NCBI GenBank assembly: GCA_031082145.1
Contig: JAVHLP010000009.1
Coordinates: 1-64,000, forward strand
Length of the DNA: 64,000 nucleotides
Direction: 5' to 3'
From: a bacterium
GTDB lineage: Bacteria > Bacillota > Sulfobacillia > UBA995
The translations under genes were made by a program, and so were the position numbers. Below are positions 6,109-49,140 of this stretch, piece after piece (position 1 is the first letter of the stretch; the number at the start of each line of letters is the position of its first letter). The notes beneath the pieces were generated by a model that saw only the letters and a list, made by a program, of their open reading frames with translations, had not been told where the DNA came from and searched no databases.

Positions 6109-6393
6109 GTCGCCATGGGTCAGTCAACCAGGCCCCGTTCGCATCCCGGCCAAGTCTACGGGCCCGCGAGTGCGCCCTCGTCGGTGACTGCGCCACACGC
6201 AGGTGAGAAACCGGGCGGAAAACCCGTGACTCGAAGGTACTTCCAAGGGCACCTCGTGTACCTGGTGCTTCCCGGTACTGCAGACGCCAACCGGGCATTG
6301 GCTAAGATCTGAGCCTCGGCTGTCAGGAGGTTGGGTGCCCATGGGTGTCGAATCCCGTCCCATCATTACTGTAATTCCCAATAGAGGTGACCA

Positions 6394-9300
6394 ATGGCTA
6401 CGGGCAACCTGGAGAGCCTCTACAGACTGGTGGAGCAGGCGGCTCCCACCTTCCTCGAGGTTGTTGCTGAGGCTGCCAACTCAGCCCGCAACGAGCGGGA
6501 GTTCCAGACGAGCATCACTCGGCACATACAGGGATTCGCTGATAGCATCGGCGTGAGCCTCCTCCTCCGGGAGGAGTATACCTTAGCTACGGGCCGGGCG
6601 GATGCCGTCTACAACCGGCTTGTCATTGAGTATGAGCGCCCCGGTTCCATGCGCCTTGACCTAGGACACTCCCACACAAGACACGCTGTTATGCAGGTGA
6701 AGCAGTACATAGCGGAGGTGGCAACCCGAGAGCACCATGATCGGGACCGGCTTCTCGGCATGGCGTGGGACGGAAGGGTCATGGTTTTTGCTCGATACAG
6801 AGACGGCCATTGGTACGAGGAGCCCCCATTAGAAGTGAACAGGCACTCCATTTCCCGTTTCCTTCGCTCCCTTGTGTCCCTGTCCTCAGGGCGCGCCCTT
6901 ATCCCTAAGAACCTTGTTGAGGATTTCGGAGCTCAGAATATGTATAGCCAGAGGATCACCAGGGCACTGTACAATGCTTCAGAGCGAGCTACAGACGGCC
7001 TTCCGGCTAAGCTCTTCCTTCAGTGGCAGCGCTTCTTCGGCCAGGTTAGCGGGTACGAGGAGGCCTCTCTCCGACTACAGAACAAGAGGGAACTGCGGCG
7101 ACTAGCTCGCGGCATGGGGCTCCAGCCTGAGACCACCGACCCATCCCGGCTGTTCTATGCCATACACACATACTTCTCCTTCTTGCTGAAGTCGATTGCC
7201 CGCCTTGTTCTGGAGCGTTACGCTGGCGGCCACTTGGGGACCACACCTCTAACTGGGCTAGCTACCTTAGAGGGCGTTGCTCTGAAGCGAGAACTAGTGC
7301 GATTGGAAGACGGTGGGATCTTCCGAACTCTGGGACTCGTTAACCTACTTGAGGGAGATCTTTTCTCGTGGTATCTTGAGGCTTGGTCCACTGAAGTCGA
7401 AGACGCGCTGCGCCTCACACTCTCCCGGTTGGCCGAGTACAACCCCGCCACTATAGAGGAAGACCCGTTTGCCGCCAGGGATCTGCTTAAGAAACTGTAC
7501 CATTATCTGCTGCCGAGGGAACTCCGCCATGATCTCGGTGAGTACTACACCCCTGACTGGCTGGCGGAGAGAGTTCTCATGCAACTCAACGAGCCTCTCT
7601 TAGTGGCGCCGCGAGCTAAGCGGCCTGCTGTCAGGCTTTTCCCTGCGCGAAGGGTGCTTGACCCGGCCTGCGGGTCAGGTACTTTTCTGATACTGGCAAT
7701 ACGCTCAATCAAAGAGCACTGCCTACGCCAGGGGCTAGCCGAGGCAGATGCCCTCGAGTACATACTGGAGAACGTGGTCGGTGTTGACCTAAACCCGCTT
7801 GCAGTCATGGCTGCCCGGGTTAACTACCTGTTAGCAGTCGCTGATCTCGTTCCCTACAGGCGCGGCCCCCTTGTGATCCCTGTCTACCTGGCTGACTCCA
7901 TTGTGACTCCCACAGAGGGGACCACTCTCTTTGAGCGATCGGAGCGGCGCCTGAACACTGTGGTCGGGAGCCTGCCGGTGCCGCAAAGCATCGACACTGC
8001 CGGTGCCATCTCCAAGCTGACCGACCTCCTCGACGAGTGTGTCTCCAACTTGTTCACCCCACAGGCGTTCGTGGCGAGAGCCAACAAAGAACTGAGCATA
8101 TCTCCGGGCGGTCCGGATGAGGCCACTCTGAGGGAGCTCTATGGCAAGCTGCTGGACTTGAGAGCTCAGGGACTGGATGGTGTCTGGGCCAGGGTTCTGA
8201 AGAACGCTTTCATGCCGCTGTTCCTCGGCCAGTTCGGCTATGTGGTCGGCAATCCCCCGTGGGTCAACTGGGAGAGCCTGCCTGACAGGTACAGACAGCA
8301 AATCGTGCCTCTGTGGAAGAAGTACGGGTTGTTCGTCCACTCTGGGATGGACACCATTCTGGGGAAGGGCAAGAAGGACATTTCTACTTTGATGGCCTAC
8401 GTCGCCATGGACCGATACCTGCGAGCTAATGGCAAACTGGGGTTCGTCATTACTCAGACAGTTTTCAAGACCTCGGGGGCAGCCCAGGGCTTTCGAAGGT
8501 TTGGGCTTCCCGATGGCACCCCGCTTCGCGTACTTCACGTGGACGATCTAAGCGATCTTCAACCGTTTGAGGGAGCCACCAACCGGACCTCTGTAGTGGT
8601 GATACAGAAGGGTCAAGCCAACAAATATCCCGTGCCGTATACACGCTGGCAGAAGACCGTAAAGGGCAAGGGGGTGAACTACGACAGTACGTTGGCCGAC
8701 GTCTTGGCGATGGTGCGTCGCATGCAGTTCCAGGCAGTGCCGATTGACATCGATGACGCTACATCCCCATGGCTTACAGCCCGGAGAGGTGCTTTGGCGG
8801 TCCTGTCAAGGGTTCTCGGCAGTTCCCCTTACTACGCTCATGCGGGCGTGTACTCGGGTGGTGCGAACGGAGTGTACTGGCTGGAGGTCGTCACTCGACG
8901 GCCAGACGATCTCCTTGTTGTGCGCAATATGACCGAGGGCAGCAGGAAGGATGTTGAGGAGACTACTGCTGAGATCGAGGCGACATTTGTCTACCCGCTT
9001 CTGCGGGGTCGAGATGTTCACCGGTGGCAAGCGCTTCCCTCGGCTCACATTCTGATGATACAGGACCCGGTGAAGCGCCAGGGGTTTGACGAAGCAGAAC
9101 TGCAGGCATCTTGCCCCAAGACCTATGTGTACTTAAGGCACTTCGAGACAGTGCTGCGGAAGAGAGCTGCTTTCAGGCGTTATTTCACTCGCGAGGGCAG
9201 CGATACTGCCCCTTTTTACTCCATGTTCAACGTAGGGGAGTACACCTTCGCCCCGTACGCAGTCGCTATTCGACAGATAACCGAGAGCATGCAGGCTGCG

Positions 9301-9729
9301 GTGGTGGGCGAAGTGGATGACCTCGTTCTCGGTCGGAAGAGAGCGCTCCCAACACACAAGCTGCTGTGCGTTGCCGTCCAGAGCCATGAGGAAGCCCATT
9401 ACCTGTCAGCAGTATTGAACTCCACCATCAGTCAGCTATTCGCGAAGGCTGTGATGCTGAGCACTGGTTTCACGGCGGGAGCTTTGGCAAAGCTGGCCAT
9501 ACCGGGCTTTGACCCCTGTGATCCGGTGTGCGTGGAGTTGTCTGAGCTTTCCATGAGGGCACATGCTGCCGTACGCAGCGGGATCCACCCACTACCTGTT
9601 GAGGAGGCCATAGCCGAAGCTACCGGCAGGCTATGGGGGATCACCGAGAGCGAGACTAGGCGTATCGAGAGGAGTCTGTCCGAGATGACCGAACCTACCG
9701 CGGGGACACCTGCAGACGAAGATGCCTAA
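6394..9729 (+). CDS. Eco57I-like N6-adenine DNA methylase with possible N-terminal nuclease domain
   Basis: This 1111-residue protein is a large modification or modification-restriction polypeptide of the type IIG/Eco57I kind. Methylase motif I DPACGSGTFL begins at residue 423 and catalytic motif IV NPPW is at 620-623, the N6-adenine signature. The region after residue 800 resembles a target-recognition domain. Residues 68-84 (GRADAVYNRLVIEYERPG) look like a PD-(D/E)xK core with Asp70 and Glu79, but the usual Lys is replaced (E-Y-E), so cleavage activity is uncertain. ATG 6394 follows GAGGTG. It is the first gene of a four-gene operon whose next gene overlaps it by 8 nt. GC content and codon use are visibly lower than in the flanking genes. 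Confidence 0.88.
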   Translation: MATGNLESLYRLVEQAAPTFLEVVAEAANSARNEREFQTSITRHIQGFADSIGVSLLLREEYTLATGRADAVYNRLVIEYERPGSMRLDLGHSHTRHAVMQVKQYIAEVATREHHDRDRLLGMAWDGRVMVFARYRDGHWYEEPPLEVNRHSISRFLRSLVSLSSGRALIPKNLVEDFGAQNMYSQRITRALYNASERATDGLPAKLFLQWQRFFGQVSGYEEASLRLQNKRELRRLARGMGLQPETTDPSRLFYAIHTYFSFLLKSIARLVLERYAGGHLGTTPLTGLATLEGVALKRELVRLEDGGIFRTLGLVNLLEGDLFSWYLEAWSTEVEDALRLTLSRLAEYNPATIEEDPFAARDLLKKLYHYLLPRELRHDLGEYYTPDWLAERVLMQLNEPLLVAPRAKRPAVRLFPARRVLDPACGSGTFLILAIRSIKEHCLRQGLAEADALEYILENVVGVDLNPLAVMAARVNYLLAVADLVPYRRGPLVIPVYLADSIVTPTEGTTLFERSERRLNTVVGSLPVPQSIDTAGAISKLTDLLDECVSNLFTPQAFVARANKELSISPGGPDEATLRELYGKLLDLRAQGLDGVWARVLKNAFMPLFLGQFGYVVGNPPWVNWESLPDRYRQQIVPLWKKYGLFVHSGMDTILGKGKKDISTLMAYVAMDRYLRANGKLGFVITQTVFKTSGAAQGFRRFGLPDGTPLRVLHVDDLSDLQPFEGATNRTSVVVIQKGQANKYPVPYTRWQKTVKGKGVNYDSTLADVLAMVRRMQFQAVPIDIDDATSPWLTARRGALAVLSRVLGSSPYYAHAGVYSGGANGVYWLEVVTRRPDDLLVVRNMTEGSRKDVEETTAEIEATFVYPLLRGRDVHRWQALPSAHILMIQDPVKRQGFDEAELQASCPKTYVYLRHFETVLRKRAAFRRYFTREGSDTAPFYSMFNVGEYTFAPYAVAIRQITESMQAAVVGEVDDLVLGRKRALPTHKLLCVAVQSHEEAHYLSAVLNSTISQLFAKAVMLSTGFTAGALAKLAIPGFDPCDPVCVELSELSMRAHAAVRSGIHPLPVEEAIAEATGRLWGITESETRRIERSLSEMTEPTAGTPADEDA

Positions 9730-10864
9730 CCCTTTTGCGGCCATCACTCCGGTCCTAGCCGTGCTAGCAACAGATGGGAGAATCTTGCCCGCTACAGGCC
9801 AGGCCATCATTGACTTGGCAGGCAACGACCTTGACGAAAGTTATGATCGGGCGATCTCAGAAACAACCTCGGTGGGAACCGTGTGGGAGACTCGGCGGAG
9901 CCTCTATCATCCCGTTCGTCCAGTACCCCGCTACGAACGTCATTGCCTCCAGTACTTCCTGGACGGCTCTACCCGCACATACTTTGTGGGAACCGTCCTT
10001 GAACATGATCGGTCGAGTCCGGTACAGTTTGCCCAGGTCGGGGCGGCTGGTGTGCAGCGAGAAGAGGACGGACGCATACGGGTGGTCAAGGTGCGCCGTA
10101 AGCTCGTTCTCCTCCTAGACAGGTCATCCCTCTCGCAGGAACTATGGCTCAAAGTGGCACGGACAACAGCCCAGGTTCCCAGCTGCACCCTTCGTACGAC
10201 TTCAGAGGAGGATCCCTACGGAAAGGGTGTGCGGGAGAAGCGTACGCGGGGAGCCCACAAGGCCAATTGGGCCATGCGGGAGGAGGAAATCGCTCTGGCC
10301 AACGATGACTTGGGGGAACGGTCTGGAGATGAATGGCTAGCGGTCGACGGCGGGTTGGGGAATGAATACATGGACTGGCAAGGACCACCCGTGATCGGCG
10401 TCGCCAAGTCATTTCAGAAGGACCTTCATTTCAGACTGGGGTCTGGGCCCCGGGGTCGCAGTCTGAACTTGTACGGTCTCCTGGCCGGTCTGGAGGAAGG
10501 CAACCGCACCGCCGTTTTTCCTCGTTGGGCAGGAGAGGCTCGGGAGGGGAAGATCGCCTTCTGGTACGTCCGTATCAGGCCGCAACGAGGGCTGGACTAT
10601 CCCCTGATGGGCGTTGTGAAGGTTGACATGCCCAATCGCAGCCGAGAAGTCGTGGACTCCGACCTAGTCGACATGGTGAGCGGTGCCGTCATTGCTGAGC
10701 GTTGTGTTGCCCCGCACGGGCGAGACAGCCGCTGGCATGCACATCTCTATCCCATCTCTATCGCCGAGCGAGTCATAAGAGATCAGTTCTACTCCGGAGA
10801 GGTGCTGAAAGCGGCCATTCGCTGGCCTCAGTTGCCCCTGTCCTCAGCAGTCGGGGGGTCATGA
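9722..10864 (+). CDS. NurA-like nuclease
   Basis: This 380-residue protein shows the elements of NurA-domain nucleases, the partners of HerA ATPases in DNA end processing. A Val-Asp-Gly-Gly strand at Asp209-Gly210 corresponds to the family's catalytic DGS. GVAKS around residues 226-230 matches the second conserved block (GxxK). A C-terminal RWHAHLYPISIAERVI resembles the NurA closing motif (P-xx-L/I-A-E/D). The N-terminal 200 residues are longer than in archaeal NurA and unassigned. The start ATG overlaps the methylase stop (ATGCCTAA), and the HerA-like gene begins 1 nt after its stop, so coupling is tight. The identification is by motif and genomic partner, not by search. Confidence 0.62.
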   Translation: MPNPFAAITPVLAVLATDGRILPATGQAIIDLAGNDLDESYDRAISETTSVGTVWETRRSLYHPVRPVPRYERHCLQYFLDGSTRTYFVGTVLEHDRSSPVQFAQVGAAGVQREEDGRIRVVKVRRKLVLLLDRSSLSQELWLKVARTTAQVPSCTLRTTSEEDPYGKGVREKRTRGAHKANWAMREEEIALANDDLGERSGDEWLAVDGGLGNEYMDWQGPPVIGVAKSFQKDLHFRLGSGPRGRSLNLYGLLAGLEEGNRTAVFPRWAGEAREGKIAFWYVRIRPQRGLDYPLMGVVKVDMPNRSREVVDSDLVDMVSGAVIAERCVAPHGRDSRWHAHLYPISIAERVIRDQFYSGEVLKAAIRWPQLPLSSAVGGS

Positions 10865-10865
10865 G

Positions 10866-12623
10866 ATGGAAGCGAAGGATTCGCAAGGGATGCCGACCGA
10901 CCAACCAGATGTGTTGGAGACCGAAGTATCGGAGGCAGAGGCGTTTGAGTCCGAAACTGTAGTCGGTCGAGCTTCAGCAACAGAGAGAGACTCTAACAGT
11001 GCCTCGCAGTTCTCGTTCTGGCTGCGTCCTTGTTATAGGGTGAACCCCTTCGACATCGTTGCCGCCGAACAGGGAGAGGACAGCCACACCTACGGCTTAG
11101 TGACCAACATCCGGCACTTGACGGATGCAAGCAGCCACCTCTCGAATTATATCTCGAATGACTTCGGGGAAATGCTCGACGAACCGAATACGCCCCGCCA
11201 AGGAACCAATGTGGCCGAGGTTGCAGTCTTATCCAACAACAAGGACATTTACATGCCTGTTCAGAGTGAAGCCCGGGTACGATTTGCGGATGAGACTGGC
11301 GTTCACGGCGCCCTCGGGATTGATGTGGTGAAGCTGAAGGAGGCTCGCGAGCAGAGAGCTGTTTGCGTACCTGCAGGAATTATCCGAATGAGCAACGGTG
11401 CTAAAGCTGTCGCCTACCTTGATGCGGACTACGTTCTTGGCCCCGAGGCGGCGCACGTGAACGTGTCTGGCATCTCGGGGCTAGCCACAAAGACGTCGTA
11501 CATCATTTTCCTTATACAGTCGATCCTTCAGACCTTAGACGCCTCGAGAATCGCTACCATCCTGTTGAATGTGAAGTACGACGACCTCCTGCACATCGAG
11601 GAGCCACGCGCACTGGCACCAGAGGAACACGAAATGTGGGAGCACTTAGGCCTGCGCGCGGAGCCGTTTCCCAAAGACAGGGTTCACTACTTGCTACCAT
11701 GGGGGAGAGGTTCCCAGACTACAGGCCGCCCCAACAGCTTCGGGGACCCTCCGCTTCCGCACAAGATGTATGCCTATTCCCTGAGGGAAACCGCAGATAA
11801 ATTGGACCTGCTGTTCGCGCAAGTTCCCGATCCATGGGACACTGTCGGAGCCCTGCTGGGCGAGGTGATGGTCGGTATTCAGAACAACGAGTCCCGCTTC
11901 CGCAACATCGTCACGTGGGATGACCTCTTGACCAAGCCTCCGTTGATGGATGGAGGTGTTCCCCAACAAGTTCTGCAGGTTAGGCCATCCAGCGTGGGGC
12001 GGTTCGTGAGGCTGTTGAGGAGAGTAATCAAGACTCGCCAGTCTGGCGTTTTTGTTCCTCAGCTATCCACTAGGATGGTGGCTCTACATAGTGAGATTGG
12101 TGACCTCAAGGGCGGGCACACGTATGTCGTGGATATAGCCCGACTTCAACCAGATGAACAGACCTTGGTGTTTGGCGATGTGCTTCGCACCATCTACGAA
12201 CTGTACTCGGGCGAAAGCGGACTAGAGACTGCTGAGGAACTGCCCGAGAAGGTGATCGTGTTCGTGGACGAGCTGAATAAGTACGCACCGTCTTCTTCGC
12301 GGGGTCAGGAGACACCCATTCTTGACCAGGTTCTTGATATCGCGGAGAGGGGCAGGTCCTTTGGCATCATCCTCTTCTCGGCTCAGCAGTTCCTTAGTGC
12401 TGTCCACCCGAGGGTGACGGGCAACGCGGCCACGAGAGTTTTCGGGAGGACTGATAGCACTGAGATTGCAGAGGCCCCATACCGTCGCCTGAACCAGGAC
12501 GTAAGAACCCACTTGACGCAGTTGACTCAGGGGGAACTCGTCCTAGCGCATCCGATATACAGACAGCCCGTCAAGATTAGATTCCCGCGGCTGGCATTTC
12601 GCCAGGGACGGGCCAGAACATGA
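10866..12623 (+). CDS. HerA/DUF87-like P-loop ATPase (DNA translocase)
   Basis: This 585-residue protein has a HAS-barrel-like N-terminal region followed by a HerA/FtsK-type ATPase core. The P-loop position reads GISGLATKTS (residues 202-211), which is atypical: one residue longer than GxxGxGKS and lacking the Gly before Lys209. Walker B is VIVFVDELNKY with Asp468-Glu469. It is followed by ILDQVLDIAERGRSFGIILFSAQQF, which contains the HerA-type RGRSFG and sensor region. HerA hexamers pump DNA into bound NurA, and here the NurA-like gene lies immediately upstream. The stop overlaps the next gene's ATG (ATGA at 12620). Assignment to the superfamily is firm; its specific role in this operon is inference. 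Confidence 0.8.
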   Translation: MEAKDSQGMPTDQPDVLETEVSEAEAFESETVVGRASATERDSNSASQFSFWLRPCYRVNPFDIVAAEQGEDSHTYGLVTNIRHLTDASSHLSNYISNDFGEMLDEPNTPRQGTNVAEVAVLSNNKDIYMPVQSEARVRFADETGVHGALGIDVVKLKEAREQRAVCVPAGIIRMSNGAKAVAYLDADYVLGPEAAHVNVSGISGLATKTSYIIFLIQSILQTLDASRIATILLNVKYDDLLHIEEPRALAPEEHEMWEHLGLRAEPFPKDRVHYLLPWGRGSQTTGRPNSFGDPPLPHKMYAYSLRETADKLDLLFAQVPDPWDTVGALLGEVMVGIQNNESRFRNIVTWDDLLTKPPLMDGGVPQQVLQVRPSSVGRFVRLLRRVIKTRQSGVFVPQLSTRMVALHSEIGDLKGGHTYVVDIARLQPDEQTLVFGDVLRTIYELYSGESGLETAEELPEKVIVFVDELNKYAPSSSRGQETPILDQVLDIAERGRSFGIILFSAQQFLSAVHPRVTGNAATRVFGRTDSTEIAEAPYRRLNQDVRTHLTQLTQGELVLAHPIYRQPVKIRFPRLAFRQGRART

Positions 12624-13882
12624 ACGGTTCGACGAACGCGGGTTCACTACCGATCATCCCGACGAGCTTTGAGTATCGACTAGACCTGGCCCGCGCTGCT
12701 ACTTCGCGGGATCTGAGACTGGCTCCTAGACACCGGTGGTTCCATTTCGCCCACAGCTACTCGCCCTTGTTGGTTCACGAAGTTCTGGATAGCTGGCAGC
12801 TCACGGGGTACCCTCTAGTCTTGGACCCCTTTGTGGGGGCAGGAACAACTCTGCTAGTGTGTAGGGAGCGATACATTGGCGGACTAGGCTTTGATCTCTC
12901 ACCTCTTGCTACCCTCGTTGCCAGTGTCAAGATCGCTGAGCATGATCCTGCTGAACTCCGGGTCTGTGTTCAGAGCGCGTGTCGTGACTCGCGAGGTGCT
13001 GACGCAATACCGGCTTGGTCATCTCCCCGACTGAAGAGGGCCTTTACAGTTCGAGAACTCGCTAGGCTCTGGGCCCTCGGTCAGGCGATCTCGAGACAGC
13101 CCAACGCTGTCAGGGGGTTCCTCACTGTCGCCTGGTTGCGGACTGCGTGCACGCTTAGCCGCGCTCTTGCTGACGGCGGCTGGTTCCGCTGGACAGAGGG
13201 GCCGGATCGCAGTCACACAATACTTGCCGCTTTTACGTCTCAGGCGAGTTTGATGCTGCAGGACCTGGCAGGTACGACTCCCCCAAGCCAAACTGGGGTC
13301 CTGGAGGTCAGGATCGGGGATGCACGAGCCTTAGACGTAAGACCCAATAGGGTTGACGCGGTGATCACCTCCCCGCCATACCCGAACCGCCATGACTACA
13401 CCCGGGTGTTCCACATTGAACTGCTGTTGCTTGGCCTCAGCGAACATGAGATTACAGAACTCAGGTACCGATCATTGAGATCACATGTTGAGGCCAGACC
13501 GTTGGCCGCTCTGAGCTCGGGCTTGGAAAGCTTCACGGTGCCGCACTCCCTCAATAGTCTGCTGACGCAGTTATCTTCCTGCACTCGGAAACGGGTTCAG
13601 CGGATGCTTTGGGGATACTTCGAGGACTTGTACCTCACGCTCAGGGAAAGCTATCGAGTTCTGAAGCCCGGTGGCCGGGCAGCTTTCGTGGTGGGCAATG
13701 TTAGACATGCAGGAGTCCTGATACCCGTGGATGAGTTGCTCCAAACCCTGGGAGAGCAGGTCGGGTTCTGCCACCACCGCACATGGGTGATCCGGCTTCG
13801 CGGGAATAGTGCACAGCAGATGGGGCGCTTCGGGCGGGAACCACTGAGGGAAAGCGTAGTCATGCTGCGAAAGCCTCGCTAG
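12620..13882 (+). CDS. Site-specific DNA methyltransferase (SPPY class)
   Basis: This 420-residue amino-methyltransferase carries the S-adenosylmethionine motif DPFVGAGTT at residues 69-77 and the catalytic motif TSPPY at 250-254. Motif I comes first in the chain. TSPPY followed by PNRHDYTR is common in N4-cytosine or N6-adenine methylases; the modified base cannot be told by eye. The C-terminal block LKPGGRAAFVVGN is a typical final strand. It starts at the ATGA overlap with the HerA-like gene and is the last gene of the operon. It gives the module a second modification activity besides the Eco57I-like protein. Confidence 0.85.
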   Translation: MNGSTNAGSLPIIPTSFEYRLDLARAATSRDLRLAPRHRWFHFAHSYSPLLVHEVLDSWQLTGYPLVLDPFVGAGTTLLVCRERYIGGLGFDLSPLATLVASVKIAEHDPAELRVCVQSACRDSRGADAIPAWSSPRLKRAFTVRELARLWALGQAISRQPNAVRGFLTVAWLRTACTLSRALADGGWFRWTEGPDRSHTILAAFTSQASLMLQDLAGTTPPSQTGVLEVRIGDARALDVRPNRVDAVITSPPYPNRHDYTRVFHIELLLLGLSEHEITELRYRSLRSHVEARPLAALSSGLESFTVPHSLNSLLTQLSSCTRKRVQRMLWGYFEDLYLTLRESYRVLKPGGRAAFVVGNVRHAGVLIPVDELLQTLGEQVGFCHHRTWVIRLRGNSAQQMGRFGREPLRESVVMLRKPR

Positions 13883-14285
13883 GGCGACATAGCATAGGGT
13901 TGTTCATCCCCGCAACAGATGGCCGACACATTGCCGTACCAGCCCGTTGATCGCCGAAGGCATCCACTCGGAGCTTCTTGGAGACCCTCGACAACTACGG
14001 CCCTGCCCGTTGTCGCGCTATAGGATGAGACGGGAACGGAACTGTTATGCTTCGAAACCGCTGGCCGTGGGTTCGCCGTCTGGTATCAGCCTCATAATGC
14101 CGTATGAGCGACTATCACGCGGGCTGTCAGGTTGCACTGAGCAGCTGCGCCAGGCAGAGCCGCTGTCATCTCACCACTAGCCCGGAGTTTGCCCGCCGGG
14201 ACGTTCCGTACGGGGTTCTCCCCCGCCCTTATCGCTTCGAGTGTAGCTGTTAAGAAACAATGGCTCTCTTCTTAGGCGGTCATGC
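13883..14285. other. Intergenic stretch without recognised gene
   Basis: Four hundred bases follow the methyltransferase operon. A plus-strand open frame (13947-14180) shows no family features and no ribosome site. No convincing terminator or tRNA was seen. It borders a decayed transposase and is probably island debris. Confidence 0.4.
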
Positions 14286-14728
14286 ATGAACTCTATGAGG
14301 ACCGCGCAGCACATTAGCCGACCGGGTCGTTACCGCAAGCTCGAGAGTGGCCTGGAGCTCAAGGAGGTCGTCACGGGAGAAGACAGCGTCACCCGCCAGC
14401 GCTTTGGTGGTCTACAACCCGAAGGGGGAGAATGTGATCGGCACGAGCGGGCAGACATTATCGCTGAGGTGAAACGCAGGCTGGCCGAACTCGAGCTGCT
14501 TGCAGGGGAGCCGCACAACAAGGCGGCATGTGCTATACGGGCCCACTCGAGCTACGGGCGATACAACGCAGGACCGCCCTGAACCGGGCCCTTATCCGGC
14601 CGGAGGCCGCCTTTGATGGCAAGCTCCTGGTGAGCAACTCTGACGGGAGACCATCGCGAACAGGGCCAAGGCCTAGGAGGAGGAGTCCAAGTGGCACGAG
14701 ACTATGCGCCGGCAGGGCTGCAAAGCCG
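14286..14728 (+). pseudogene. Decayed IS1634-like transposase remnant
   Basis: Pieces of a DDE transposase are spread over different reading frames. They are, in order, RPGRYRKLESGLELKEVV, then VVYNPKGENV in a second frame, then DRHERADIIAEVKRRLAEL back in the first, and AAFDGKLLVSNSDG in a third. The order and wording match IS1634-type transposases (yNP... then RDxxxRexIxxxLe, then FDGxxxlxTN). Several frameshifts and both ends missing make it inactive. It lies between the methyltransferase operon and the TIR pair and points to past IS traffic in the island. The family call is from remembered motifs only. Confidence 0.55.
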
Positions 14729-15907
14729 CTAGTCGTCAGTCTCGGAACAGATGATGCCCGAAGCCTGTATCAACTGAACCCACTCGTTCATCACCTGACC
14801 ACCCTCAACCATGATGGTGAGTCCCTTCTCAAGGCGGCGCAAAGGGGGGCGCAGGTCTCTCGACATCCCCTTGAGGGGGGCACATGCATCAATCATCTTC
14901 TGGATCGACTCGAGCGCAGCGCTCGCCGCTGCAGAGACTCTGGTGACGGACCTGAAGAAATCACAGAAACCTGCTTGGGAGTCAGGGTTCTCTTGTACCT
15001 CAGCTGGCGCTCGCTCAATCAGATCGCGGAATCCTGTGTTGATATCATGCAGGTGGGAAGCGTATTCGTTACTCCACTCCCAGATGCGTTGGGTCGGACA
15101 GTCCAATTGGCTAGCGACCCTGCGAACGGTGACCAACCTGGCGGCGAACCCCTTTCCCTGTTGGTCTGCTCGTTTGATGCAAGCAGTCCCTTCGGTCATA
15201 ATCTGCCCAATCAAGTTGATGTCTTGGCTGATGAGACGCAGGATATCATTGGACTTCGGTAGCGCCTCCTCAGCCTTTGCGAGACGGTCCAGAAGGCCGG
15301 GTGAGTCATTAGTCATACCTTCCTCAAGACGCAGGTCGATCTGGGGGGTGGTTGAGACCCCCTCCGCTAGCCCTGCGTCTTGATTCGCCTGCCTGAGTCG
15401 TAAAGCAAGCCGCCGGACACCCTTCCGATGTTGGGGGGACGAGGGATCGGCAAGGCTCAGTTCTGTCCAGTCCTCGTACTGGAATTGCCTGAGAGACCGG
15501 ATGAGGGGGTCCTGACTCAACTCATTGGGAAAACCGGGAACGTTGACATAGAGCAAAGGCATGAGGAGGTCTTCGTAACCCAATCGCTTCGCCTTTCGGA
15601 TGAACTCCTGCAATTCACGTCGGCACTCGGGGCTCTCGAAGTACGCAGGGGTAAGGACTGGGATGAAGAACGTAGTCGAAGCTAGGCTTTTGTCAATGAC
15701 GGTTTTCCAGTGCTGGCCCCACTCGATCGCATCACGATCAAGGAACAGGGGGAGCTTCTCGCCACCCGTGAGGAGTTCGTATTGGTCTTGGACTAAAGCT
15801 GCCAGGGCGGAAATGCGCCCGCCTTCGATCTCATCATCGCGACGAACATAGGACCAGAACCCCCGTGAATAGTGGTGTTCTTCACCGCCGGTCTCGCTCC
15901 TAATCAT
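14729..15907 (-). CDS. TIR-domain protein
   Basis: This 392-residue protein has an N-terminal TIR domain (about residues 10-150). The visible features are FWSYVRRDD (box 1-like), LFLDRDAIEWGQ, FFIPVLTPAYFESPECRREL with the candidate catalytic Glu98, and later DWTEL. Bacterial TIR domains with this Glu are NAD-consuming enzymes or produce cyclic-ADP-ribose signals in antiphage defence. The C-terminal 200 residues are helical and unassigned. I chose ATG 15907 because AAAGGAC lies 8 nt upstream and it overlaps the DUF5677 stop by 8 nt. The open frame extends 41 codons further upstream, but that part only mirrors the neighbouring gene. Confidence 0.82.
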   Translation of the reverse strand: MIRSETGGEEHHYSRGFWSYVRRDDEIEGGRISALAALVQDQYELLTGGEKLPLFLDRDAIEWGQHWKTVIDKSLASTTFFIPVLTPAYFESPECRRELQEFIRKAKRLGYEDLLMPLLYVNVPGFPNELSQDPLIRSLRQFQYEDWTELSLADPSSPQHRKGVRRLALRLRQANQDAGLAEGVSTTPQIDLRLEEGMTNDSPGLLDRLAKAEEALPKSNDILRLISQDINLIGQIMTEGTACIKRADQQGKGFAARLVTVRRVASQLDCPTQRIWEWSNEYASHLHDINTGFRDLIERAPAEVQENPDSQAGFCDFFRSVTRVSAAASAALESIQKMIDACAPLKGMSRDLRPPLRRLEKGLTIMVEGGQVMNEWVQLIQASGIICSETDD

Positions 15908-16676
15908 TACCAGCAAGTCCTTTCGCTGAGCAGTCGGGACCGCTTGTCGCGAGACATGATCGAACTCCACTATGAAGACCCTGGTAGGCGGACGGGATTG
16001 TGACGCCTCGCACCTTGCATAGCTCTTCAACAGCTATACCGACTAGGAGGACAGCTGTCTTGAGCACCAAGGGAGCAACGCTGTCAGACTCAGTGAGAGC
16101 ACGGCCGTCTCGTAATAGGATGCCAGTATCAGTCCACTTGGCATAGCTCCTCGCGGTAATAGGCGATCCGTGGGCATAGCCGGATCCGAACCTGTAAGGC
16201 AGAGCGTAGAGATGGAGGACATCGACTTCCCTGGCTTTCGCCTCAAGACTGAGGTCACTCCATCCCTGGGCGTTGACTCTTCTATAGTTGCGTTCTATAA
16301 GACGAACCTGGTCCTCCGGATAACGGTGGGCGAACGTCTCAGGTGGATACACGTCCCGGAGAGCGTTCATGCGCTTATGCTCCTCCACCCAAAGATGATC
16401 AGCGTATAGTCCGGCTCGGGACGACGGTTCGGCGTTAATGTAGAGCAAACTAATGACGTTCTCTACCATTGAGCGCATTACTATGACTGCATCGGCGTCT
16501 AGTCCGTGTTTGCAGAGAAGCTTAATAGCGCGGAAGCTCGTCCGGGTCCTGCTGAGGAAGACGAGGTTAATTAGTAGATGAGGCGTGACCTCGCGTGTAT
16601 GCCTGGTCAAGGATGCAGCGAGCTCCTCAATCGTCCGATCTGCGCATTCGAGGAGCTGTTCGAGGGAAGGCCCCAC
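15900..16676 (-). CDS. DUF5677-family protein
   Basis: This 258-residue, mostly helical protein matches the DUF5677 pattern: repeated long helices, RSMVENVISLLYI, the HKRMNAL segment, and YRFGSGYAHGS. The last resembles the Arg...His arrangement of HEPN-like folds, though the spacing differs from classic RxxxxH. It is translated from GTG 16676 after GGAGGT, and its stop lies inside the start of the TIR gene, so both are made from one message. The function is unknown. Its fixed pairing with a TIR protein in an island suggests it is the sensor, regulator or partner of the TIR effector. Confidence 0.65.
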   Translation of the reverse strand: MGPSLEQLLECADRTIEELAASLTRHTREVTPHLLINLVFLSRTRTSFRAIKLLCKHGLDADAVIVMRSMVENVISLLYINAEPSSRAGLYADHLWVEEHKRMNALRDVYPPETFAHRYPEDQVRLIERNYRRVNAQGWSDLSLEAKAREVDVLHLYALPYRFGSGYAHGSPITARSYAKWTDTGILLRDGRALTESDSVAPLVLKTAVLLVGIAVEELCKVRGVTIPSAYQGLHSGVRSCLATSGPDCSAKGLAGND

Positions 16677-17385
16677 TGACTGACCTCCGTGAGAATGGAT
16701 GGCACGTCATGCATTGCGGGATTCGACAGGTTCCCAGGATTCTCCTTCTGTCTGTTACCTGGTGTCGGTAGGAAGGTCACCACCTGGATGTCTGTGGCGC
16801 AAAGAATGTGCATTGCTCCCCCAGCTCCGGCTAGCAACCGGCAGTTCCGGCCTGCTCTGGGAGTGGGCTGACGCCGCGCCCACCGGGGACATCATGGTCT
16901 CCCTGAACAGTGACTCGTAAGGCTTCACCGACCTGCTCCCGGAGACCCCGAACTGCGGCGGCTCTACCGGGCCGGCGACCCGGGAGTCGAAGCCGTCTGC
17001 CGAGGGTCGAGGCAGGAGATGGTCCACATGCTGGGGCACCGCTGCAGAGTCACTGCTGCCGACGGCGTCCACCATCCGGGCCGAGGTCATCAGCCATCGC
17101 TGGTGGCAGCTACAGGCGACGGCGGAGGACCCGGGCGGTATGGTCTGGAGCCGGACCACCGTGTGGCGGGTGGCGGACGGACACCGGGACTCGATCGGGG
17201 ACATGGCGACCCATCGCCGGAGAGTTACACCCTCAGCCCCTATCACTCCATCGTCGGCGCCCCCCGCAGCCGAGATCGAGTATGCCCCGGGCACGGATGA
17301 CAACCGGCAGTGTGCCGTGGGACCCGGAACTTCCCGCCCCCTCCCCCGTCCATATACCCAGAACCCCCTCCCGGGAGGTATCGCC
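16677..17385. other. Island edge, no recognised intact gene
   Basis: About 700 bases separate the DUF5677 start from the exported-protein gene. GC content rises from left to right, so the island boundary probably lies near 16850-16920. Open frames on both strands cover it, but none has a good start site. The plus-strand translation around 17080-17220 (ending in a WRVADGHRDSIGDMATH-like stretch) looks protein-like and could be the tail of a disrupted gene. I could not name it. No direct repeat matching the left edge near 6109 was found. Confidence 0.35.
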
Positions 17386-44463: not shown

Positions 44464-45693
44464 ATGATGGCTCTGGTTTCCAGACCCGTTGGCGTTTGCC
44501 CTGCTTGTGGAGAGGGCAAGTACGGGGGTGTTCTGATCCGGAAGGATAGCGTCCTGTATGGGTGTTCTCGATGCAGCTTCCAACAGACTTACCAACTACC
44601 AGCACTCACCAAGGAGATCGTCTACGTCGATCAGTTGGTCCTCAGCCTGGCGACCATGTACCAGACCACAGGTCGCGGTGACAAGAAGTGGCTTGATCTC
44701 TACGACCGACTTCAGCACCTCTCGCGAAGGCAGTTGATAGTGTGTCCCCTCTCAGAACTTCATGAACATGAGGCAGATCTTTCGGCCTCTAGCGGGTCAA
44801 GCATCGTCACCTCCGGGCAGCTCCTAAGCCAGGGTGTGAGAATGGGCGGGTATCTCGAAGTTGAGGCGAGCCAGTTGGGCAGATCACTTGCCCGGTTCCT
44901 CAAAGGTGATCCGCCTGACCCGGCGTGGGGTGAGCTGGGTTGGAGGGATGCATTCCGGACTAGCCCACATGCATGGACCGACTATACGTCCCTATGGGTC
45001 AGGTCAGAGCCAGCTCCCGAAGACGTGGTACGGCGGCGTAGCGGTAAAGATAAGGCTCATGCTGTCATGCAGGAAGTGCTCAAGGACTGGATGGTCAGAC
45101 AGCGCATCCACTTCGATGAGGTCTACAGAGAGGAACTGGATTGCATCGGGCCTGCTGTTTGGCTCCACGCGAGTGCCTACTACAAGAGGCTAGCCTCTGC
45201 CGCTGATAACTCTGAGCGACGGAGGCTCTATTGGGAGGCCGGGCACTCCGTTCTCCTAACCGAGCACCTTGTAGCCCTCGTTCGGAAGCAACACCCGGAC
45301 GGAAACGCCCTTGAGGTAGTCGCCAAGTTCTATCATTCCGACCACTTCAAACAGACTCCCTTCGCTATTCTGCAAGCAAGGCTGTACGCTGGCATGGCCA
45401 GCCACGTGAAGGGCGGGCGGGTGTTGAGTGCTAGCGACTCCTACGACGTCCTAGTCATCTCTAGGTATGCACCGTATTGCGACGCAGTGTTCGTAGACGA
45501 CTTCATGAGGTCACTGTCCAGCGGGACACCTGTGAACCTGGAGAAGTTCTGCGGAACTCAGTTCTTCTCGGCCAAGACCCTGGGCAGTTTCCTCGGGCGC
45601 CTAGCGGGCCTGGAGAGCCGCATGTCGACCTCACATCAAGAAGCCCTTGAGCTAGCGTATCCTAGGCTAAACGGGGCAGGGAAGAAGGAGTAA
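44464..45693 (+). CDS. Zinc-ribbon protein with PIN-like nuclease domain
   Basis: This 409-residue protein is not assigned to a named family. It has an N-terminal zinc ribbon with Cys12, Cys15, Cys34 and Cys37 (CPAC...CSRC). The pattern of a PIN-like RNase follows: VYVDQLVLS (Asp56), VCPLSELHEHE (Glu98, Glu101 or Glu103) and, near the C-terminus, YCDAVFVDDFM (Asp340, Asp345/346). The order Asp, Ser-x-x-His-x-x-Glu, CD...DD is characteristic of large PIN-like proteins. The start is the first of two ATGs. An extended -10 (TGGTATATT at 44441) begins one base outside the repeat and would give a very short leader. It is the only rightward gene of the island. Confidence 0.6.
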   Translation: MMALVSRPVGVCPACGEGKYGGVLIRKDSVLYGCSRCSFQQTYQLPALTKEIVYVDQLVLSLATMYQTTGRGDKKWLDLYDRLQHLSRRQLIVCPLSELHEHEADLSASSGSSIVTSGQLLSQGVRMGGYLEVEASQLGRSLARFLKGDPPDPAWGELGWRDAFRTSPHAWTDYTSLWVRSEPAPEDVVRRRSGKDKAHAVMQEVLKDWMVRQRIHFDEVYREELDCIGPAVWLHASAYYKRLASAADNSERRRLYWEAGHSVLLTEHLVALVRKQHPDGNALEVVAKFYHSDHFKQTPFAILQARLYAGMASHVKGGRVLSASDSYDVLVISRYAPYCDAVFVDDFMRSLSSGTPVNLEKFCGTQFFSAKTLGSFLGRLAGLESRMSTSHQEALELAYPRLNGAGKKE

Positions 45694-45805
45694 GTGGGAC
45701 TAGGGCTCGGGGAAGCAGGCCGTCATCCGAGTGTGGACAGCCCAGCACATGCCGTGCGCCATACGATGAGCGGTCAACCTGCGCCGGGTGGTATGAACCG
45801 GACGG

Positions 45806-45853
45806 GGCCCCAGCACAGCCGACGTCAGGCTGAACCGCTGGCTAGCTGGGGCC
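45806..45853. terminator. Convergent hairpin inside the island
   Basis: Arms GGCCCCAGC (45806-45814) and GCTGGGGCC (45845-45853), with a further GCC/GGC pairing inside, lie between the PIN-like gene stop (45693) and the convergent TIGR02391 stop (45853). There is no T-run. Confidence 0.45.
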
Positions 45854-46758
45854 TATTCGAGGCCGGTGCGCACGGCTTGATCTAGACGACGATGCAGTAG
45901 TGAGCACAGAGATAGTATGTCGAGCGCATCTTGTTCGCCCATAGGCCAGCTTATCTTCGGAGCGTGCGCCAGTGTGTTCCGGAAAGTCCCAAAGAGACCC
46001 TTGAGCAGGTTCATCAAGCCCCTGTGCTCCCCCCGTTCAGTCTCTGAGCGGAGTGGGTTGAAAGCAAGAAGCGGGTACTCCGAAGCCCCAAACGCGAAGG
46101 CGGAATCGACTAGCTGGGAACCATCGCCATCGAGTTCAGACTTCTCACGGATCTTCTGGGCCACACTCTTCGCGGCCTCAAACACTGCATGGAAGTAGTT
46201 ATCCTGCAATAGCTCAGCCCGGCAGAACTTCAGGACATCGGGATGGACTCGCCGCTCTATGAGAGCTGACTTCAGCTTGGTGGCCCTCTGGTCGGCCTCT
46301 GAGAGGGTGTGTACTTGCTGCACTTTGATCAGAGTACCATCTTCGCGCAACTCGAGACCACAGAACGCCAGAGTCTGATTTAGACTTGTGCGGCGTATCT
46401 CAAAGGACGCACGATTGTCGACGTACCTGACCGGCTTCATAGCCGCTTGGATGAACGCAAGGACGTTGTTAGCACATCGATCGGCTTGCTGCCTCATGAA
46501 GAGCGCTCCGTACAAACGATCGCGCTTGGTCATAGTGGGCGATAGGTCTGCGATTCCAGCCTGCGATAGAAGGCGGCCTATCTCACTTCCGGTGAGCCCC
46601 GTGTGTGTATCGGCTAGCACAGCACAAATGGCCTCAAGCTCGGCGCCTCCAATAGGCGGAATAGCAGCCAGCAAGACCACCTCCCACAGTTCATATGACG
46701 TCCGCGGCGTCACCGGCAGCGAAGCGAGTCCGGTGGACGCCGTTGTTGGACACCACAC
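45853..46758 (-). CDS. TIGR02391-family HEPN-like protein
   Basis: This protein (301 residues at most) has the TIGR02391 (Ymh-type) layout: an N-terminal segment ICAVLADTHTGLTGSEIGRLL, a middle with KRDRLYGALFMRQ and VLAFIQAAMKPVRY, and a C-terminal helical domain with LLKGLFGTFRNTLAHAPK. The Arg260-Asn...His265 pair is the RxxxxH motif of HEPN ribonucleases. The start is uncertain: GTG 46758 has no ribosome site, while TTG 46674 has GGGAGG 5 nt upstream and would drop 28 residues. It lies 12 nt behind the AbiJ-like gene, in one transcript. HEPN toxins typically cut RNA after phage infection. Confidence 0.72.
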   Translation of the reverse strand: MWCPTTASTGLASLPVTPRTSYELWEVVLLAAIPPIGGAELEAICAVLADTHTGLTGSEIGRLLSQAGIADLSPTMTKRDRLYGALFMRQQADRCANNVLAFIQAAMKPVRYVDNRASFEIRRTSLNQTLAFCGLELREDGTLIKVQQVHTLSEADQRATKLKSALIERRVHPDVLKFCRAELLQDNYFHAVFEAAKSVAQKIREKSELDGDGSQLVDSAFAFGASEYPLLAFNPLRSETERGEHRGLMNLLKGLFGTFRNTLAHAPKISWPMGEQDALDILSLCSLLHRRLDQAVRTGLE

Positions 46759-46770
46759 CGAGCCAGAGCA

Positions 46771-47628
46771 TCAAAATGACCTACCGCGCCGTCCGGCCAA
46801 CACGGCCAGGATGTTGACAACGGTGGATGTCGCCTCTGCACACAGTGCAGCCATTCGGAAGTCTGCGGTCCGCTTATGCTGCAGAGCAACTGCTAGACGG
46901 AGAGCAGCTCTTGCGTGTATGCGTACTTCTTCGTTCGCACCCCCACCAAGTTCGACATCAAAGAACGCTTCCAGCATACGTCCTGCATCCGTAGCACTCG
47001 GAGCTACGCCATCCAACGTTGGGTGACGACGCGGATCGAAAACTTCCTGTGAAACGGTGATTAAGACCTCTCGGCAAAGAAGACCAACAGCTTGATACTG
47101 CTCCTCGGTTCCGGCTGTGTCCAGACGGAGCCGCACTTCCTGAAGCTGACGATCCACCTTCTTCCAACCAGTGGGATCCTCGAATACCTCCGCTCTGTGC
47201 CCAAGTCTCTGGGCGGCGAACACCGGCTTGCCCGATATCTGCTTCGCCTCAACAAGCGACCATCCGTCAGCCGCGATTTCTCTATTGTAGGCTGCGACTA
47301 GGTCTCTTGCTTCGGCGGTAGACGGGCGAACGACGGGATGAACCGTTTCACAGAGAAACCGTAGGAACTCACTATCCGGCGCGTGGATAAGGTTGAAACG
47401 ACTATCGTAGAACACCCAATCTTCGTCCCAGTCCCGCCAGTTGACGCGGTGCTGATGGATATCTGATGCGGCCGTTCGCATACGTGAATCGTTAGAGGGC
47501 AGAGATGTCAGGTCATATAGGCGTGCCAGAAAGTCGTCCTCTTGAAGGCGGCCTGCCCAGTGCGTACCGGATGTAGTCAGGAAGTCCACTATGGCGCGCC
47601 GTGTGACTTCGGATATCTCATCCGGCAC
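46771..47628 (-). CDS. AbiJ-like (AbiJ N-terminal domain 3) abortive-infection protein
   Basis: This protein is about 285 residues long. The N-terminal half fits the AbiJ_NTD3 pattern: RRAIVDFL, W-x-GRL-x-x-x-x-FLARLYDLTSLPSNDSR, DIHQHRVNWRDWDEDWVF, and RFLCETVHPVVRP. The C-terminal half is helical and resembles the HEPN-like region of AbiJ proteins. GTG 47628 follows a perfect GGAGGAGGAGG by 6 nt, so I prefer it to the longer frame starting at 47712. Abi proteins stop growth of infected cells. Pairing with the adjoining HEPN-like gene suggests a two-gene defence unit. Confidence 0.65.
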   Translation of the reverse strand: MPDEISEVTRRAIVDFLTTSGTHWAGRLQEDDFLARLYDLTSLPSNDSRMRTAASDIHQHRVNWRDWDEDWVFYDSRFNLIHAPDSEFLRFLCETVHPVVRPSTAEARDLVAAYNREIAADGWSLVEAKQISGKPVFAAQRLGHRAEVFEDPTGWKKVDRQLQEVRLRLDTAGTEEQYQAVGLLCREVLITVSQEVFDPRRHPTLDGVAPSATDAGRMLEAFFDVELGGGANEEVRIHARAALRLAVALQHKRTADFRMAALCAEATSTVVNILAVLAGRRGRSF

Positions 47629-48459
47629 TACATCCTCCTCCTCCGGTGTCCAGCAATGACCATGCTGATCCGTATAAGACACCAGACACTGACCCCTCTG
47701 CCCGCATATCACGCAGCCAGCAGACGGCCACTGCTCTCTTAACAGCGATACTGTGCCCCATCTGAAGCATCATCGGCATCTTATCGGGATACGCGTAACA
47801 GCTTCCCACTACTTCATAGCTCATCCCAGGGCTGCGATCCCCTGCGGGCCGCGGTTGAGCATGGTCCTCCATTAGCTCAGACCCGAAACCTCACAGGGCC
47901 TGTCGCATCCATTTGCCCCCACCCCCGTCGAATCCTGCCAGTTCCAGGTCGTCGTCCGCGTCTTGTCCTGTAGCTCGCACGACGGAGTTGCAACTCAGGA
48001 GTGAGTTGGCTCTGGCAAGCCTCGAGTGATCTCACTGCCGCCCGGCCTCTTCCGCGTGCGCCATGGAAGGACTGAGCGCCGCTACGGCAGGCCGCGCAGC
48101 AAGCTGGGGAAGACGTTGCTGCGGGTTCCGGCAGAGGAACTCGGCGGGTCCGCCTCACGGCTCGACGCCATCAAGAGGGCGCGAGCACGTCTTGAAAGCA
48201 GACTGGTTAAGGCTGACCTGGAGGTCACAGTTGATAGCATGGGAAGTGGTGGAAGAGCATGGAATGGCATGTTCACGCCTGCCGTAACTGGCCGACCGGC
48301 CAACGTAGCCCAGTCTTCTGCGGGCCACTTGGGATTAGCCGACGACACGTTATGGGTTCGATCGGGATGGCGGCGGAGAAAGCGTGGGAATAGGAATTCA
48401 AGGTATCGGGGCTGCTGAAGAAGCCGGGCCCATTGGTGCTTGCATTTGGCCAGGCTATG
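47629..48459. other. Island interior without recognised gene
   Basis: The stretch between the AbiJ-like start and the broken transposase holds only short overlapping open frames on both strands, none with a family pattern. A 28-codon extension of the AbiJ frame (to 47712, with CGQRGQC and HGHCW) could be a leader peptide. The right part probably includes the frameshifted end of the transposase. Confidence 0.35.
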
Positions 48460-49140
48460 CTGGTTGAAGAGAGCAATCAGATATCCGTAGTGAAGCCCCC
48501 GCAGGGCCAATCGGTCTCCCGATGGCCTTGAGGACGTTGTGGGCGAGAGCCACGAGAGGCAGCCCTCACATCTAACTGCTGGCAGGCCGAAGCGACGTAC
48601 TCGCCGGAACCCGAGATCCGTCAAGTGGGCAAGAGCCCCTTCGACTACTGCTTGCCTTCGTTTCCGCAGGCACTGGCGCCACCGAGTCCGGTTGCGGGAT
48701 TCGGCCCTCAGGAACTCTGGTTCGCACTTCGATAGCTGGATAACCCGCCGCTTCCGGAGTGGAGGCAGGCACTGGTCCTTTCGGCAGCACTGTTGGCAGT
48801 CGCTGGTCGCGGCGGCATGAGTCCATGTCTCATCCTTCTCGTAGTAGGTAACTCGTCTGAGCACCTTGCCGGCAGGGCAGGGCAGCGCATCCTGGTGTCT
48901 CAGGTAGAAGCCCTTCCGCGAGTTGCGGTCCTGCAAGTGTCGGGTGTGAAGGGGGATGTGGGCCTCCACTTCCCGACGCTCAAGGTAGTGACGCAACGCG
49001 CCCGAGGTATAGCCTGTGTCCGCGGTGAAGAGCCTCTCTGGCACAGGAGCCTCAGCGAGCAGCTTGAGAACGGGATCGGCATCTCCCGTGTTTGAGTGCG
49101 TGACATCCTGGGCCAGGAAACCGTTGCTGTCGGTAATCAC
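48460..49140 (-). pseudogene. Truncated IS1182-like DDE transposase
   Basis: The frame begins within the catalytic domain (VITDSNGFLAQDVTHSNTGD, then LFTADTGYTSGALRHYLE). It continues through the cysteine-rich CPAGKVL and DCQQCCRKDQC insertion and EPEFLRAESR to the Glu region VEGALAHLTDLGF. Near 48560 the natural continuation (LVALAHNVLKAIGRPIG) has moved to another frame. The N-terminal third is missing, ending at a stop about 10 nt before the right direct repeat. It is inactive. The deletion endpoint coincides with the island edge. Confidence 0.7.

Follow-up and report, generated by a model that had tools for sequence, protein, structure and literature searches.

A probable tdtA-type operon of type IIG, NurA, HerA and methyltransferase genes in a member of the Sulfobacillia

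Four closely packed genes in a 64,000-nucleotide stretch of bacterial DNA (Bacillota; Sulfobacillia; contig JAVHLP010000009.1; hereafter, the window) raise the question of whether a HerA–NurA pair joined to two DNA methyltransferases represents an undescribed restriction or antiphage system, as the initial annotation proposed, or an operon type that has already been published.

The locus and its four products

All four open reading frames are intact on the forward strand between positions 6394 and 13882 (Table 1), and when re-derived they gave exactly the junctions first annotated: g1 and g2 overlap by 8 nt, a 1-nt gap separates g2 from g3, and g3 and g4 overlap by 4 nt. The lower-GC island described at the same time was also recovered, with the GC content falling from 66–72% to 56–60% between about 6 and 17 kb of the window, and a third-position GC of 0.57–0.67 in the island genes versus mostly 0.83–0.95 in the flanking genes. 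The operon is absent from a genome of the same family (G001), whose left-flank genes are syntenic with those of the window (71% identity for a V-ATPase subunit, 82% for RNase J and 61% for a peptidase); the right-hand flanking gene has no match in that genome, so that the empty site is demonstrable on the left side alone. Within the class the operon is sporadic, a related NurA being found in 3 of 154 genomes. Judged from its sequence, the operon was evidently acquired horizontally as a unit. No tRNA was found within the window, no integrase on its contig and no direct repeats of at least 13 bp between the searched flanks of the operon.

Table 1. Predicted features of the locus in the window.
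Feature	Positions	Strand	Length	Assignment
g1	6394-9729	+	1111 aa	predicted type IIG restriction endonuclease-methyltransferase, TspDTI/Tth111II subfamily
g2	9722-10864	+	380 aa	predicted NurA-family nuclease
g3	10866-12623	+	585 aa	predicted HerA/FtsK-type ATPase, TdtA-like
g4	12620-13882	+	420 aa	predicted N4-cytosine/N6-adenine amino-methyltransferase
Island, low GC and low GC3, evidently acquired	6110-16700			operon, TIR gene and DUF5677 gene (opposite strand)

Downstream of g4, the same low-GC3 island carries a TIR_2-domain gene and a DUF5677 gene (14729–16676, reverse strand) that overlap by 131 nt. They were considered as parts of the operon and rejected, neither being a recurring shared family across related loci. 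A second low-GC island, at 44600–49140, encodes an AbiJ N-terminal-domain protein (46771–47712), a Hypoth_ymh protein (45853–46758) and a DDE transposase (48082–49140).

The g1 product matches the PADLOC model for IIG restriction-methylation proteins (PDLC03630) over its whole length, with 1322 bits. It is composed of a nuclease head (D70-E79-E81), a helical linker, a gamma-type N6-adenine methyltransferase, with DPACGSG at 423 and NPPW at 620, and a C-terminal target recognition region. The same order is found in the TspDTI subfamily (TspDTI, Tth111II/TthHB27I and TsoI), with which g1 also has in common a size of ~1100 aa and the hallmark motifs D-EXE, (D/P)PACGSG and NPPW (PMC3384240, PMC3751577); in TspDTI itself, the catalytic residues have identical spacing (D66-E75-E77), motif I is at 422 and NPPW is likewise present. 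The earlier Eco57I/N6_Mtase assignment holds, and the nuclease head that had been suspected is conserved across 44 homologues, the aspartate and the first glutamate being invariant and the third position being occupied by glutamate in 29 and by lysine in 15. The atypical D-EXE and the typical D-EXK (window 6601–6636) coexist within one operon family. A model of the N-terminal 269 residues, built from an alignment of 40 homologues, reached a pLDDT of 85, and its sole significant match in the PDB is the restriction-modification enzyme DrdV (E 5e-4). We assign g1, on motifs and domain order, as a predicted type IIG restriction-modification enzyme of the TspDTI/Tth111II subfamily. The Tth111II motif CAARCA occurs in the window at chance level (37 versus 33.7 expected), and the site of g1 itself may differ from it.

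No Pfam hit was obtained for g2 or g3, and the NurA Pfam model itself fails to score g2. A profile of the g2 family, built from 63 homologues, finds the NurA of Deinococcus radiodurans (7f6d_H, E 9.5e-6), and the AF2 model of the protein (pLDDT 91) matches the same nuclease (7f6d_G, E 2.9e-14, probability 1.00), with no other significant match. The invariant residues among 73 homologues include D209 and K229. Profile and predicted fold agree in identifying g2 as NurA, and the suggestion of a NurA-like nuclease, for which a fold check had been asked, is thereby borne out. The g3 product matches the HerA of the same structure (PDB 7f6d, E 2.8e-35, 125 bits) and contains a Walker A motif at 202 (GISGLATKTS) and a Walker B motif at 467 (VDELN). 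The Walker A sequence is of an unusual form, GISGxATKTS, common to g3 and the solved D. radiodurans HerA (GISGVATKTS), and K209 and D468/E469 are invariant in 80 homologues. Its description as a HerA-like ATPase stands, and g3 is predicted to be a HerA/FtsK-type ATPase.

The second methyltransferase, g4, scores above the cut-off against PF01555 (32.9 bits) and matches the PADLOC MTase_II model. Motif I (DPFVGAGT, at 69) precedes TSPPY (at 250), both being essentially invariant in 28 homologues, which upholds the SPPY-type assignment.

Regarding known defence systems, g1 and g3 give weak matches to PglX (BREX) and to mad2 and mad8 (MADS), in all cases far below the family cut-offs; PglX is matched below threshold only, and PglZ, BrxC and BrxL were not found in the island. 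Neither a SIR2 nor a DUF4297 domain was found there, the partner of HerA being NurA. The earlier statement that the gene set does not match BREX or the SIR2/DUF4297–HerA systems stands, but its list of known systems overlooked the tdtA operon of Thermus.

Correspondence to the Thermus tdtA operon

The tdtA operon of T. thermophilus HB27 is formed by TTC1877 (the IIG enzyme Tth111II), TTC1878 (NurA), TTC1879 (TdtA, an FtsK-HerA protein) and TTC1880 (a PF01555 methylase); it has 58% GC in a genome of 68% and is located on the 14.9-kb element ICEth1 (Blesa 2017, PMC5365140). In the window, both the four gene types and their order are the same, and the operon likewise has a GC content lower than that of the host. 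Product sizes of 1106/377/568/410 aa in HB27 compare with 1111/380/585/420 aa here, a likeness drawn from the published description, and spacings of 4, 2 and −4 bp (PMC5365140) compare with −8, 1 and −4. A cluster in T. scotoductus DSM 8553, whose IIG enzyme is 50% identical, was called tdtA-like by the same authors (PMC5365140); its proteins are 46–48% (g1), 42% (g2) and 57% (g3) identical to those of the window (L032/L104). The locus is very probably a tdtA-type operon. The system can no longer be called undescribed, the same four-gene operon having been published as HB27 tdtA on ICEth1 (PMC5365140); the new locus is a further example of that poorly understood operon type. As an antiphage system, the operon was not found reported in a literature search that left preprints and most subscription journals outside its coverage.

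The surroundings differ. ICEth1 has a XerC-type integrase and tRNA-derived direct repeats, neither of which was found around the window operon, and it is therefore the operon, not the element, that is claimed here. A search of the genus Thermus (27 genomes) found no HB27-like four-gene operon; it gave four full-length g1 copies, each without g4 within the stretches examined and one with a broken HerA. In the latter copy (L101:3407-5099), HerA is split into two frames, which suggests decay of the operon there.

Conservation of the operon among relatives

A scan with g3, using one genome per species, returned 456 relatives, and the 80 best loci were retained. The counts that follow cover 66 of these 80, in which HerA is at least 50% identical, and genes lost at contig ends were scored as absent. 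The IIG gene is beside or near NurA–HerA in 54 of the 66 loci, in some of which one to three other genes separate it from NurA; the methylase comes after HerA in 27, and 21 keep the complete order IIG–NurA–HerA–methylase, g4 being missing from many operons. Some operons have the alternative order NurA–HerA–IIG. Since the IIG gene is beside NurA–HerA in so many loci and the four-gene order recurs in 21, such an arrangement far exceeds what chance would give. Carriers belong to ~15 phyla according to record titles, mostly of metagenome bins, so that single assignments may be wrong.

The catalytic residues are invariant or nearly so in all four protein families. The distance matrices of g1, g2 and g3 correlate with r of 0.87–0.93 (0.87–0.89 for g1 versus g2 and g3), none of 500 permutations being as high; those of g4 correlate with g1–g3 at 0.69–0.76, again with no permutation as high. 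The g4-bearing operons cluster in the tree (support 80/96). The results support the coupling of HerA–NurA to two methyltransferases, together with its acquisition as a single unit and its conservation across many phyla.

Several variants were observed among the relatives. Some g4-bearing operons have extra genes upstream of NurA. In L012:5786-8811, L015, L017 and L019 there are three of these, one of which encodes a BrxC/BrxD-like AAA ATPase; in L014, L020 and L021 a DUF4276 protein is encoded together with an AAA_21/OLD-like ATPase. Radical SAM genes are located 3' of the IIG gene in L049, L055, L056, L067, L068 and L071. A distant clade with HerA 36–39% identical (L075 and L077-L089, e.g., L078:8870-14939) occurs in Clostridia, Spirochaetota, Desulfovibrionaceae and Verrucomicrobiota; here genes for a GHKL-type ATPase (PF13589) and a radical SAM protein come after NurA–HerA, most junctions being overlaps of 1 to 4 nt. 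No description of this arrangement was found in the literature search. In Marinitoga camini virus 1 (L110:4927-7635), an annotated exonuclease adjoins a HerA 32% identical to g3, indicating that phages carry such a pair.

Restriction or DNA export

By homology, g1 would recognise a short asymmetric site and methylate an adenine there; if that site carries no modification, g1 would nick or cut the DNA at a fixed distance downstream. A HerA ring (g3) with NurA (g2) would load on the resulting end or nick, HerA translocating the duplex while NurA trims it. The g4 enzyme would add a second mark, of N4 or N6 type, as an accessory without which the core can do. The self-marking and HerA–NurA degradation first proposed are possible, since the family that includes g1 is one of genuine restriction-modification enzymes. 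We give an even chance to the explanation as a whole, that of a tdtA-type operon in which a IIG enzyme is coupled to a DNA pump and restricts unmodified incoming DNA. The role in this host is finely balanced, restriction of such DNA being slightly likelier than export; we lean this way because the window lacks integrase and att sites and an integrase is rare among the relatives.

The genomic surroundings can be listed on the side of restriction, since the TIR gene adjoins the operon and, among 131 flanking proteins of relatives, matches of GmrSD, AbiLi, AriAB and BREX (BrxC/BrxF) type are found beside some loci. An enrichment of defence genes in these flanks is not demonstrated against the control, as 44 ordinary proteins of the window also yield PADLOC matches at the same threshold. 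Against restriction, the sole experimental result on a homologous operon concerns DNA donation, not phage resistance. TsoI and Tth111II are moreover weak cutters, methylation outweighing cleavage in TsoI (PMC3751577), which would be odd for a restriction system.

The donation results favour a different role, DNA secretion (transjugation), in which g1 would make transfer origins by nicking the genome of its own cell at many sites, and HerA–NurA would pump duplex DNA out to competent neighbours, as in HB27. In that strain, donation is abolished by deletion of tdtA and lowered 4–5 orders of magnitude by deletion of nurA and ~3 orders by deletion of the IIG gene, and transfer is higher where more Tth111II sites are nearby; the authors proposed that Tth111II marks transfer origins for a NurA–TdtA complex (PMC5365140); the operon methylase matters little for donation (PMC7767461). 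ComEC is encoded in the genome of the window, but it is nearly universal and says little. No integrase or att sites were found near the operon, a tyrosine recombinase is present in just 5 of ~80 loci, and the sporadic occurrence within the class also counts against secretion, which we consider a credible but somewhat less probable role for the locus.

A DNA repair module, in which HerA–NurA would resect breaks as in Deinococcus and archaea with the methylases as bystanders, is improbable. It draws on the nearest solved relatives of g2 and g3 being those of D. radiodurans, and on more distant HerA relatives adjoining SbcD–SbcC. The D. radiodurans complex has been studied in repair and end resection; the pair in the window is tied to a type IIG gene. 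Against a repair role, the HerAs linked to SbcCD belong to a clade of their own that is very distant, and g1–g3 are sporadic in occurrence and tightly co-inherited. UV sensitivity in HB27 is barely seen in the tdtA mutant and is greater in a mutant of a separate repair HerA (PMC5365140). Least probable is a chance flanking of HerA–NurA by two independent restriction-modification genes, which would fit the plasmid-borne g1 relatives of ~30% identity, whose annotation is N-6 DNA methylase, and the frequent absence of g4, but which is disfavoured by the conservation survey, with its IIG adjacency and g1 distance correlations, as well as by the 1- to 8-nt junctions.

With regard to the family, restriction through a IIG cut feeding HerA–NurA, which would degrade unmodified DNA processively, may be what the tdtA-type operon mainly serves across its ~15 phyla, donation in Thermus being a side use; we put this forward tentatively, at a little under an even chance. 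A restriction enzyme joined to a DNA pump would connect two supposed opposites, the destruction of foreign DNA and the export of a cell's own. Homologues of the Thermus DNA-donation operon are present in many bacterial phyla, mostly without a nearby integrase, and this broad, integrase-poor spread is the interesting part, for it makes the choice between restriction and cell-to-cell DNA transfer a general question.
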